Below are positions 5,526-14,843 of a DNA stretch of 64,000 nt, piece after piece. How positions within the stretch are numbered: position 1 is the stretch's first letter; every line of letters starts with the position of its first letter. Made by a program: the position numbers and the translations under genes. The notes under the pieces were generated by a model. The model saw nothing but the letters and a program-made list of their open reading frames with translations. It searched no databases and was not told where the DNA came from. The stretch covers positions 8,976,001-9,040,000 of the forward strand of contig CP107851.1 in assembly GCA_036013505.1 (NCBI GenBank). Direction: 5' to 3'. The stretch comes from Streptomyces sp. NBC_00510. Its GTDB lineage: Bacteria > Actinomycetota > Actinomycetes > Streptomycetales > Streptomycetaceae.

Positions 5526-6635
5526 TCAGTGCAGTTGACCGTCGGGTGAGACCGACGGCGTCCTCGCCGGTTCGGGTTCGGGCTCGAGTTCGGCGGGGGG
5601 TGCCGCGGGGGCGTTGGCCCACGCGGCTTCGGCCGCCGCCGCCCAGGCGGGGTCGGCCCAGGACGTGTCGGCCCGCTCGTCGGGTTCGAGGACGTCCTCG
5701 CCGTACAGGTCCTGCAGCCAGTTGCTCTGGTAGATCGTGTCGAGGTAGCGCTCGCCGAGGTCCGGCGCGATCGCCACCGACGTGAGGCCGGGGGCGCCGT
5801 TCTTCTCGAGCCAGCTCATCGCGCCGCTGACCACGGTGCCCGTCGAGCCGCCGAACAGGAAGCCGCGGCGGGCCAGCCGGTGGCAGGCGCGGATGGTGTC
5901 CGCCTCCTCGACCAGGACGACCTCGTCGACGAAGGACTCGTCGAGCAGCGGCGGGTGGACGCTCATGCCCAGCCCGGGGATCATCCGCCGGCCCGGGGCC
6001 CCGCCGAACGTCACGGAGCCGACGCTGTCCACCGCGACGACCTTCACCGGCCGGGACCACTCACGGAACCAGCGGGCGCAGCCCATCAGCGTTCCCGTGG
6101 TGCCGGCCCCGACGAACACGACGTCGACCTCAGGGAACTGCCGTGCGATCTCCGGAGCGGTCGTCCGGTAGTGCGCCCGCCAGTTGCCCGGGTTGGTGTA
6201 CTGGCTGAGCCACACGTACCGGTCGTCCGAGGCGCACAGCGCGCGGACGAAGTCCAGCCGCGCGCCGAGGTAGCCGCCGTGGGCGTCGGGGCCCGAGATG
6301 ATGTGCACCTGGCTGCCCAGGGCCTTCATCAGGAGCCGGGTCGACAGGTTGCACCGTGCGTCGGTGACGCACAGGAACCGGTAGCCCTTGCTGGCGGCGA
6401 TCATGCTCAGGGCCACGCCCAGGTTGCCGGACGAGGACTCGACCAGGATCGACTCCGGAGTCAGGATCCCCTCCCGCTCGGCGGTCTCCACCATCTCGGT
6501 CGCGGCTTTGAGCTTGATCGAACCGGCGAAGTTGAAGCCCTCGCACTTCAGGAAGAGCGGTTGCCCGAAGATCGACTCGAGGTCGACGAAGAGCTCTTCC
6601 TCGTTGAAGGCCTGGGGAACGGATATGACTGTCAC
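5526..6635 (-). CDS. sbnA: SbnA-like N-(2-amino-2-carboxyethyl)-L-glutamate synthase
   Basis: 369 aa. GTG 6635 is chosen because AGGAGG lies just upstream (AGGAGGCCATC then GTG). It is a PLP enzyme of the cysteine-synthase fold: GSIKLKAA supplies the PLP lysine (about K41), ESSSGNLGVAL the substrate loop, and GAGTTGTLMG the phosphate-binding loop. SbnA joins O-phospho-L-serine and L-glutamate to give ACEGA, which SbnB oxidises to L-2,3-diaminopropionate. Pairing with SbnB in one operon separates it from housekeeping cysteine synthase. Odd: after the usual C-terminus there is a tail of about 50 residues rich in Trp/Ala and then Pro/Glu. It is the last gene before the terminator. Confidence 0.9.
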   Translation of the reverse strand: MTVISVPQAFNEEELFVDLESIFGQPLFLKCEGFNFAGSIKLKAATEMVETAEREGILTPESILVESSSGNLGVALSMIAASKGYRFLCVTDARCNLSTRLLMKALGSQVHIISGPDAHGGYLGARLDFVRALCASDDRYVWLSQYTNPGNWRAHYRTTAPEIARQFPEVDVVFVGAGTTGTLMGCARWFREWSRPVKVVAVDSVGSVTFGGAPGRRMIPGLGMSVHPPLLDESFVDEVVLVEEADTIRACHRLARRGFLFGGSTGTVVSGAMSWLEKNGAPGLTSVAIAPDLGERYLDTIYQSNWLQDLYGEDVLEPDERADTSWADPAWAAAAEAAWANAPAAPPAELEPEPEPARTPSVSPDGQLH

Positions 6636-12245: not shown

Positions 12246-14843
12246 CTACACACCGCTGATCAGCGCGGTGGCGCGATCGCCGCCGCTGTCCGGGGTCTTC
12301 GGGTTCTCGGGCATCTCCCGGGCGGGGTTGCCGCCCCACCGGGCGAGCGCGGGGAGTTCCTCGCCCTTCATGACGAAGGAGTCCGGGGCGATCACGGCGC
12401 CGTCGCCGACGGTCACCCCGTAGTGGACGAGGGCGCCGACCCCGAGGGTGCAGCCGGCACCCAGCGTGCTGTGGTCGGACTTGAAGGCGCCGTCCTCCTG
12501 GGAGTGGCTCTGGATGACGGTGCCCGCGTTGAGGGTGCAGTCGTCGCCGATGGCGGCCAGGGAACGCTCCGGGAGGAAGAGGCCGTCGTCGAAGACCCGG
12601 CGCCCGATCCGCACGCCGAGCAGACGCCAGACGACGTTCTTGAACGGGGTGCCGTTGAGGACGTTCAGGTACTCCGTCGCGGCCGTGACCTTCCAGTAGC
12701 GTTCGTGCCGCCAGAAGTCGAGGTCGTAGATCGAGCAGTACAGCGGCCGCAGCCCGCGGAACCTGGTGACGATGCGCTCGCCGAGCACGATGTAGGTGAC
12801 GGTGACCACCAGGACCACGACGTTCGCGACCGCGACCGCGGCGGCGCCGTACATGGGGTAGAGGTCGGCGGCGACGGACGCGGTCAGCGCCACCAGGAAG
12901 AGCAGCAGCCACTGCAGCAGCAGGTGGAGCACCGCGGTGCCGGTGTTGTGCTTGTTCTTGTCCGACAGCAGGCGGTGGAACCCGTCGCCGTCCTTCAGGT
13001 GGTCGAATTTGCTGTCGCGGTCCACCGTGCGGGGAATCTCGAAGCTGGGCGAGCCCAGCAGTCCGACGTTCTCCCGGACCGGCCCCTCGACGGGGACCAT
13101 GACCTTGGTCGCCAGCAGGCAGTTCTCGCCGGTCCTGCCCTGGGGCGGATAGGCGATGTGGTTGCCCAGGAAATTGTGCGGGCCGATCGCCGTCCGGGTG
13201 ACGCGGAAAGAGGTGCTCGAGTAGTCCGCATTCATGATGGACAGTCCGTCGGCGACCATGGTGCCGCTGCCGACCTTGCTCAGGTACGGATTCTCGTGCT
13301 TCACCTCGGTACCGAAATTCGAGCCGGTCTGTTCCACCGGCGACAGGTCGTACCCGATGGCGCGCAGGTAGTGCACGACGGCGGAACTGTCACCGAAAAG
13401 GACGCGGAAGAACTTCCGGTTGGTGAGGAGGCCGATGGTGCGGTGGAGCCCGTAGCGGAACCCGTACAGCGGGTGGACCGTGTCCGGCTTCACGAGCGGG
13501 TGCAGCAGCCGCGGCACGGTGACCACGACGAGGAGGCCCACCAGCAACGCCCCGCAGAAGAGGACGAAGGAGGCGGCGAGGGCGTCGGCGTAGAAGGTCC
13601 ACGTCGTGAGGGCCACCGGGCCCGGTTCCAGCAGGAGGTCCAGGCGCGGGATCACCGCGAGGAGGATCGCCACCCCGCCGACCGCGACCGGGATCCAGGC
13701 GGCCAGGAGGATCAGCAGCTGCGTCAGGCAGTAGGTGACACGGCGGCTCCTGCCGCACTCCACCGGCGCGACCACGCGGTAGTCCGCCGCGCCCGGCTGG
13801 GCGGGGGAGCCGTGCCAGCGCTCGCCGGCGGGGACCGCCTGGCCGCTGTGGAGCGAGGAGGCGTGGCCGAGCTGGGCGCCGTCGCCCATGGAGGTGCCGA
13901 TGTCGAGCACGGTCACCTCGCCGATCAGCACTTCCCTGCCGAGGGTGACCGGACCGGTCTGGATGACCCCCGAGTGTCCCCGGTAGCAGGAGAAGTAGGA
14001 GTCCTTGCGGATCACCGTGCCGTCGCCGATGGTCAGCAGGTCGGCGCAGACCGGGACGTGCTTGGAGAAGATGGCCACGCCGCGGCCTATTCGCGCGCCC
14101 AGCGCCCGCAGGTACAGCACGTACAGCGGTGAACCGACGAACAGCACCATGGGGTTCGCCCGGATCAGGGTCCGCACGCACCAGAACCGGAAGTACGCCA
14201 GGCTCCAGATGCGGATCTCCTGCGGCTTCCACCGCCCGACCAGGAGCCACTTGCCCGCGACCGGCAGGACGCAGACGCCCGCGAAGGCCGCGCCGCCGAA
14301 CTCCACGGACCGCAGATAGGTGTCGAAGGGGCTCGTGCCGGCGGATATCCACTCCGCCCCGCGCGTCACCACGAGCGCGGCGAGGTAGGAGTAGCCCAGG
14401 AAGAACAGTGCCTGCAGCACGCCGCAGAACACGTAGCGCGGCGTGCCCCTCGCCGCCGCCACCTGGATCGGCTCCGGGAGCGGCACGTCGGCGAGGGCCG
14501 AGGTGGCGGGGGTCTGGGCGCCGACCGGCGGGGCGTCCGCCAGGGCCGTCGCGAGACTTCTGATCGTCGGGTACCGGTAGATGTCCTTCATCGACACGGA
14601 CGGCAGGTCCTGGTGCTTCCGCACCCGGGCGCAGAAATGTGCCATCACCAGGGAGTCGGCACCCATTTCCGTGAAGAAATGGCTGTCGACCGACACCCGG
14701 TCCGTGTGCACGATGCCCGCCAGTATGTCGGCGAGGATCCTTTCCGTGCCGTCGGCCGGGGCGGTGTAGGGGCGCCCGGTGGTTGAAGATTCATCGGGAT
14801 CCGAAGCGGGATCCGACGCCAGGACCTCTGCAGATTTTTCCAC
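12246..14843 (-). CDS. PCP-6TM-3xLbH membrane protein related to Pls/PosA polymer synthetases
   Basis: 865 aa. GTG 14843 follows AAGGAGCTCACATC. Residues ~25-110 form a carrier protein with attachment site EMGADSL (Ser64). Six membrane segments follow in pairs (about 138-160, 183-205, 374-405, 421-450, 638-665, 668-692), separating three soluble blocks rich in hexapeptide/left-handed-beta-helix sequence (LTIGDGTVIRKDS; GSGTMVADGLS; AAIGDDCTLNAGTVIQ). This matches the known layout of epsilon-polylysine synthetase (A-T-six TM-three soluble domains), but the adenylation domain is absent. Loading of this carrier must therefore come in trans, most likely from the next gene's A domain. It probably forms amide bonds at the membrane and may export the product. 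It is first in the operon. Confidence 0.85.
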   Translation of the reverse strand: MEKSAEVLASDPASDPDESSTTGRPYTAPADGTERILADILAGIVHTDRVSVDSHFFTEMGADSLVMAHFCARVRKHQDLPSVSMKDIYRYPTIRSLATALADAPPVGAQTPATSALADVPLPEPIQVAAARGTPRYVFCGVLQALFFLGYSYLAALVVTRGAEWISAGTSPFDTYLRSVEFGGAAFAGVCVLPVAGKWLLVGRWKPQEIRIWSLAYFRFWCVRTLIRANPMVLFVGSPLYVLYLRALGARIGRGVAIFSKHVPVCADLLTIGDGTVIRKDSYFSCYRGHSGVIQTGPVTLGREVLIGEVTVLDIGTSMGDGAQLGHASSLHSGQAVPAGERWHGSPAQPGAADYRVVAPVECGRSRRVTYCLTQLLILLAAWIPVAVGGVAILLAVIPRLDLLLEPGPVALTTWTFYADALAASFVLFCGALLVGLLVVVTVPRLLHPLVKPDTVHPLYGFRYGLHRTIGLLTNRKFFRVLFGDSSAVVHYLRAIGYDLSPVEQTGSNFGTEVKHENPYLSKVGSGTMVADGLSIMNADYSSTSFRVTRTAIGPHNFLGNHIAYPPQGRTGENCLLATKVMVPVEGPVRENVGLLGSPSFEIPRTVDRDSKFDHLKDGDGFHRLLSDKNKHNTGTAVLHLLLQWLLLFLVALTASVAADLYPMYGAAAVAVANVVVLVVTVTYIVLGERIVTRFRGLRPLYCSIYDLDFWRHERYWKVTAATEYLNVLNGTPFKNVVWRLLGVRIGRRVFDDGLFLPERSLAAIGDDCTLNAGTVIQSHSQEDGAFKSDHSTLGAGCTLGVGALVHYGVTVGDGAVIAPDSFVMKGEELPALARWGGNPAREMPENPKTPDSGGDRATALISGV

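Follow-up and report, generated by a model that had tools for sequence, protein, structure and literature searches.

The window analysed here is the 64,000-nucleotide stretch 8976001-9040000 of the 10.15-Mb contig CP107851.1 of Streptomyces sp. NBC_00510, and our subject is a five-gene operon on its minus strand (window positions 14843-5526) in which a membrane protein related to the Pls/PosA polymerases of diamino acids is joined by a separate adenylating protein, an oxygenase and two enzymes of 2,3-diaminopropionate (Dap) synthesis. In operon order the genes are:

12246-14843, minus strand: P0004, membrane protein with a peptidyl carrier protein domain (PCP), six predicted transmembrane (TM) helices and three left-handed beta-helix (LbH) domains, a Pls/PosA relative without an adenylation (A) domain (TIGR02353, PF00550, structural model)
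8960-12253, likely start 12214, minus strand: P0006, half-condensation (half-C)/A/PCP/thioesterase (TE) protein (Pfam matches, half-C model, A pocket, TE match)
7929-8963, minus strand: P0005, TauD-type Fe(II)/2-oxoglutarate oxygenase (PF02668 at 4e-42, motifs)
6862-7932, minus strand: P0002, SbnB, Dap biosynthesis (above the TIGR03944 cut-off)
5526-6710, minus strand: P0003, SbnA, Dap biosynthesis (above the TIGR03945 cut-off)

A first reading of the letters alone (the sequence-only reading) had named this gene set in this order, and profile matches and open reading frame (ORF) calls bear it out. It had also described 4-nt overlaps between the genes; these are found at two of the four junctions only (P0006/P0005 and P0005/P0002), whereas P0004 and P0006 overlap by 8 nt with the listed P0006 start and SbnB and SbnA lie 151 nt apart. 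If P0006 starts at 12214, as in its paralogue, a 31-nt gap follows P0004. The nearest operon is that of Actinacidiphila glaucinigra, with 91-97% identity per protein. A built-in Dap supply had been proposed, and it holds: the adjacent SbnB and SbnA genes both pass curated NCBIfam cut-offs (413.8 against 326.9 for P0002, 387.1 against 349.95 for P0003). A proteomic study of S. scabies reports that an SbnB homologue, next to an sbnA gene and a non-ribosomal peptide synthetase (NRPS) gene, rises with potato tubers (PMC11479980); we do not equate that locus with the present operon.

P0004 scores 761 bits against TIGR02353 (cut-off 423.1) and 35.2 bits against PF00550 (cut-off 20.8), and a Pfam search of it gave no AMP-binding match, so that the A domain is not on the same polypeptide. 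The proposed placing of the A domain and the membrane polymerising part on separate proteins is thus supported, P0006 carrying the former. The AlphaFold2 model of P0004 (pLDDT 72) contains a PCP (residues 33-102), three soluble domains, the middle one poorly predicted, and six long helices in three pairs (134-167, 172-201, 365-397, 415-450, 619-665 and 667-693), which from the model are presumably membrane-spanning. Foldseek matched the model to hexapeptide acyltransferases; the search of solved structures returned no Pls terminal-domain structure, only PCP-bearing NRPS or polyketide synthase entries and hexapeptide-type matches. P0004 and ordinary Pls proteins have 63 positions in common, including H780 and D784 of the third soluble domain. 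In a 67-row tree built by a quick method, the A-less proteins, whether from operons or from orphan genes, group in one clade with the A-fused proteins L223 and L224, to which P0004 is 54% and 49% identical, and ordinary Pls proteins (23-25%) stand apart; the position of L132, a fusion protein described below, is unsure because it lies on a long branch. An EctB-type diaminobutyrate transaminase, above its cut-off, adjoins L223 and a gene annotated ectB adjoins the plasmid relative L271 (Skermanella), giving such neighbours in two of five A-fused relatives; EctB-type supply is also found in a poly-D-2,4-diaminobutyrate (poly-D-Dab) cluster (PMC8225329). The A pocket DFECLSVVTK is common to L223, L224, L267 and L271, and Phe at position 2 marks synthetases of poly(L-diaminopropionate) (PDAP) and poly-Dab (PMC10522769). 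From these neighbours and this pocket, the membrane part of P0004 seems to derive from short-diamino-acid polymerases. On Pseudonocardia plasmids, L268 encodes a Pls-like protein that has tandem PCPs and whose A domain appears degraded, with TauD directly downstream, and at L269 a Pls-like protein and a separate A remnant are followed by TauD; the TauD genes on these plasmids are 54-55% identical to P0005. The protein with the degraded A domain is a possible intermediate towards loss of this domain. Plasmid Pls-like genes at L266, L267, L271 and L273 lie near genes annotated as CopC, cation diffusion facilitator, DUF305, multicopper oxidase or ArsR-type metalloregulator.

In P0006 the AMP-binding, PP-binding and Thioesterase families of Pfam are all above cut-off. 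The Condensation match (27.3 bits, under the cut-off of 30.6) spans only profile positions 194-280 of 456, and for this reason the protein seems to lack the catalytic lobe of condensation domains, whose motif is HHxxxDG. Its half-C model (pLDDT 88) matches condensation domains with a TM-score of about 0.57-0.74 by query length and 0.33-0.42 by target length (isolated C or PCP-C constructs), resembling C-domain structures across about half their length. Of 117 aligned rows, drawn from the cluster classes described below and including that of P0006, 113 have the identical A pocket DIWQSTADDK (hits at 44% identity or less, or with 600 aligned residues or fewer, were left out), and it is also found where a set of SbnA-like, lyase and kinase genes stands in for SbnB. 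Since two different supplies adjoin one constant pocket, we argue by association that the substrate would be a 2,3-diamino acid. The code presumably resembles those for Dab and Dap, and a literature search for it gave no paper.

The nearest solved structure to the P0006 TE is that of ObiF1 (4e-35), followed by a stand-alone thioesterase and two SulM TE entries, and in the sequence alignment its DP motif, the candidate site of a catalytic Asp after beta strand 7, falls on the DP motif of ObiF1 and SulM. A Cys nucleophile serves the ring-forming TEs of ObiF and SulM (PMC11298585), whereas the GHSSG motif of P0006 points to Ser. Among 90 TE-bearing relatives GHSSG is found in 73, GHSAG in 8 and GHCAG in 7, two being unread; all seven with GHCAG belong to a divergent variant of eight loci (L175-L182), in which L181 has GHSSG. 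A second class of operons has the same other genes and no TE, so the TE is not central. The Ser nucleophile and the TE-less operons make a hydrolytic or proof-reading TE more likely than a ring-closing one in the present class, and on these grounds a ring-forming TE was set aside as the core chemistry.

P0005 matches PF02668, and its HHE and DNxRxAHxR motifs are both retained in at least 101 of 116 homologues. Natural fusions link it to the adenylating protein: L132, from a metagenome-assembled genome (MAG) labelled Acidimicrobiaceae, joins P0004-, P0006- and P0005-like parts, TE included, in one ORF of 2356 aa; in L159 and L163 TauD is fused to half-C/A/PCP where the TE would otherwise stand; and in L191 an A/PCP part is fused to TauD. 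TauD is present in 109 of the 118 loci with a P0006 relative of more than 44% identity, next to 97 with TM, 97 with SbnB and 96 with SbnA, all undercounts because our simple gene caller missed some genes. The fusions and the co-occurrence point to the PCP of P0006 as the site of oxidation, and TauD likely acts on the aminoacyl-S-PCP there, in the manner of carrier-acting hydroxylases of the SyrP type. Together with the conserved gene order, they support the tie between oxygenase and carrier-bound residue made in the sequence-only reading.

The arrangement is not a one-off. A contig scan gave 431 relatives of P0006, of which the best 80 were retained. By our gene caller, 70 of these have the complete five-gene set on a single strand and with unchanged order; when the other ten were recounted with tblastn, L059, L074, L092 and L126 joined them, giving 74 of 80, with five of the remainder at contig ends and the last being the L132 fusion. 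The conserved loci come from Streptomyces, Pseudonocardia, Actinacidiphila and MAGs, with varying flanking genes, and L286, from another family, keeps the order at 45-72% identity. Beside the L286 operon, the gene at 4895-5566 looks by eye like a phosphopantetheinyl transferase. P0006 relatives were found in 72 of 297 Streptomycetaceae genomes (E 1e-200 or better), in 15 of 296 genomes of the wider class, 12 of them Streptomycetaceae, and in 3 of 35 of the window's own genus (E 1e-150); P0004 relatives were found in 55 of the 297 (E 1e-180). A genome search for co-occurrence had been suggested from the sequence, and in it 50 of the 55 genomes with a P0004 relative also hold a P0006-type protein, against 72 of 297 overall (p 2e-33); conversely, 50 of the 72 genomes with a P0006 relative have the A-less membrane protein. 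The set had been presented as unusual: we met no described cluster of it in the literature searched, yet the arrangement is widespread and conserved rather than private. Of five genomes with the TM protein only, G054 and G151 contain A-fused proteins, and G273 does have a P0006-type protein, a divergent one, which explains three apparent counter-examples and leaves G236 and G259 as real exceptions.

The clusters fall into four classes, as drawn by the gene caller, which missed genes. Variant (a) is the TE class of the window, and variant (b) has the same other genes without TE and includes L285 and L286 in another family. Variant (c), the eight loci L175-L182, has a divergent half-C/A/PCP/TE protein (45-50% identity) with TauD in six of eight; the gene caller found neither SbnB nor TM beside it, and its neighbours are a GHMP kinase, an argininosuccinate-lyase-like enzyme, an ATP-grasp ligase and an SbnA-like enzyme (families named on L175 only), a set of which a trio is known from 2,3-diaminobutyrate pathways. 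From their sequences these clusters are candidates for a beta-lactone or beta-lactam product. L175 also adjoins genes that resemble a polyketide synthase by eye. In variant (d), L186-L188, half-C/A/PCP, TauD, SbnB and SbnA lie inside large NRPS clusters.

Three further features flank the genes:

14999-15028, minus strand: promoter-like element AGTGGCA-N19-AGAC (pattern upstream of relatives)
14843-14858, minus strand: ribosome-binding stretch CAAGGAGCTC and GTG start of the first gene, P0004 (motif counts in upstream regions)
5455-5493, minus strand: perfect 19-bp hairpin 3' of SbnA, likely transcription terminator (RNA fold)

The pattern AGTGGCA-N16-21-A(A/G)AC (first base A or C) lies upstream in 53 of 76 usable TE-class loci (three cut-off loci of 79 were excluded), in none of 19 TE-less loci or 11 orphan TM genes and in 24 of 2000 random windows, and looks like a dedicated promoter of the TE class. 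The ribosome-binding stretches in the 76 upstream regions include AGGAGCTC in 19 and CAAGGAGC in 16. The single terminator noted earlier has its counterpart in the perfect stem at 5493-5455, which has no clear U tract and was not flagged by a pattern scan; the fold of 5400-5540 (141 nt) has a z of -5.7, with none of 200 shuffles as low, and the hairpin is likely a terminator. The idea of a siderophore with an iron box was rejected: compared with an IdeR-like consensus box, the closest of the 76 regions still had 6 mismatches and the window 9, and shuffled sequences overall beat the real regions. At window positions 4870-5292 (minus strand) lies a gene for a small, secreted-looking protein of 140 aa made of AWVGPG repeats (a 57-bp tandem repeat, 5.7 copies), shorter in A. 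glaucinigra (68 aa, L054 16973-17179).

Taken together, our results lead us, by a narrow balance, to see the operon as encoding a complete pathway of its own, whose product would be an oligo- or poly-amide that is derived from Dap and exported. L-Dap would come from SbnA and SbnB; the A domain of P0006 would activate it, as its likely substrate, and load it onto the PCP of P0006 and, in trans, onto that of P0004. TauD would oxidise Dap tethered to P0006, again a likely substrate, and the half-C would probably be a docking piece, the most tentative of these assignments. Amide bond formation would fall to the three LbH domains of P0004 and export of the chain to its TM helices, while the TE, where present, would clear or release carrier-bound residues and be dispensable. 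To transfer to P0004, polymerisation and export we attach moderate confidence.

Several observations weigh against this pathway. The A pocket of P0006 is of the NRPS type and lacks the Glu at position 3 seen in Pls/PosA, whose pocket rule is Asp at position 1 and Glu at position 3 (PMC10522769), and EctB was not seen beside L224, L267 or L270, three of the five A-fused relatives examined. L225, in G236, keeps TM, TauD, SbnB and SbnA without the half-C/A/PCP gene, G259 has an orphan TM gene, and in these two genomes only NRPS modules of 35-41% identity match P0006 (36-41% elsewhere in G236, at E 1e-90). SbnA and SbnB were not found on the 23 kb of L132. Elsewhere in the window's genome (L017, L018, L019 and L021) lie three A-less TM genes that are orphans and a further half-C/A/PCP gene (68%), which is divergent from an SbnA gene and has no TauD or TM beside it. 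Loading of the P0004 PCP in trans is a step that we infer, the sequence does not choose between polymer, short oligomer and envelope modification, and neither a described cluster nor a product of the five-gene set was found in the literature searched, in which subscription journals were thinly covered. Moreover, both hydrogen-bearing carbons of Dap also bear an amine, so hydroxylation at either gives a hemiaminal, stable only with acylated nitrogen. A stable free hydroxy-Dap is therefore doubtful on chemical grounds; of the hydroxylated Dap proposed earlier the link of oxygenase to carrier stands, and the plain hydroxy residue is possible only if N-acylated. By the same reasoning TauD may instead desaturate or cyclise Dap, or act on an N-acylated residue. 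A more specific form of the pathway, with adenylation in trans and on-carrier oxidation before LbH joining and export, would yield an undescribed oxidised poly-Dap (dehydro or N-acyl-hemiaminal); this we put forward tentatively, and lean rather against than towards it. Thus, of the new (hydroxy)Dap product first envisaged, the dissociated Pls-like system with Dap supply and oxygenase remains, with a TE that is not central and with doubt on the hydroxyl.

Other explanations share parts of this evidence. P0004 might move activated, perhaps oxidised, Dap onto a lipid or wall polymer, with no free polymer made. Dlt-type systems consist of a separate A protein, a carrier and a membrane acyltransferase, and the separation of the A domain from the PCP-membrane protein, the acyltransferase matches of the LbH domains and the orphan A-less copies, three of them in this genome, all fit such an envelope modification. 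To our knowledge, however, all characterised members of the family make polymers. The Dab transaminase genes beside two A-fused relatives, as in the poly-D-Dab cluster, also argue against it, and we think it unlikely. Less probable still is ring closure by the TE to a four-membered beta-lactam or beta-lactone on Dap, with P0004 only modifying or exporting a small molecule: the ObiF1 and SulM matches and the Cys of the related kinase/lyase class speak for it, but Ser replaces Cys in the present class and a whole class of otherwise equal operons does without the TE.

Two known polymers were also considered. One is a comb-like polymer, a poly-Dap main chain whose residues each bear a Dap, which two papers mention as produced naturally by Streptomyces (Takehara 2021, as cited in PMC10522769 and PMC9606270). 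The two PCPs of the operon could serve main and side chain from its Dap supply; yet TauD would have no role in an unoxidised polymer despite its presence in 109 of 118 loci, and PMC10522769 assigns the polymer to an ordinary A-carrier-TM protein, which leaves this product improbable. Linear, unoxidised PDAP made by another route, with TauD acting elsewhere, has a precedent in S. albulus, where PDAP occurs with unlinked SbnA/SbnB-like genes (PMC4668381), but the fusion of TauD to the carrier protein in four loci makes us give it equally little credence.

As far as we found, the operon is thus a widespread, dissociated Pls/PosA-type system with no prior characterisation: about a quarter of the sampled Streptomycetaceae (72/297) have a protein related to the A-domain protein, and we found no product. 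If the proposed pathway is correct, it would show how Pls-type polymerases can be split and combined with on-carrier oxidation and would open a direct way to new cationic polymers. The TE-less, TauD-fused, triple-fusion and degraded-A variants form a natural series on how A-less Pls proteins receive their substrate. Compared with the Pls/PosA synthetases of epsilon-polylysine, polyornithine, PDAP and poly-Dab (TIGR02353), the system is alike in its C-terminal six TM helices and three soluble domains, the PCP ahead of the TM part, the diamino acid unit and residues of the third soluble domain. Those synthetases have A on the same polypeptide and no classical C or TE domain, whereas here A is on P0006 with half-C, a second PCP and TE, a TauD enzyme is included and the A pocket is NRPS-type. 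The poly-D-Dab cluster pddA-D of Streptoalloteichus hindustanus likewise combines a membrane polymerase with its own monomer-supply genes, but its A domain is fused, its monomer is 2,4-Dab and the available text mentions no oxygenase or TE (PMC8225329). PDAP from Streptomyces albulus, cited in the sequence-only reading, is indeed on record, and the system of strain PD-1 shares the Dap monomer and SbnA/SbnB-like genes, with a single fused A-PCP-7TM synthetase and no Dap genes nearby, unlike the present operon (PMC4668381). The streptothricin oligo-beta-lysine system uses a different chemistry. By its description (PMC10522769), it has a stand-alone A domain, apart from the rest as here. Finally, the TE modules of SulM (sulfazecin) and ObiF1 (obafluorin) are kin in TE sequence, and SulM also uses Dap, made by SulG/SulH (PMC11298585), whereas P0006 has Ser in place of Cys, forms one module with a dispensable TE and belongs to a set of five genes without a sulfotransferase.

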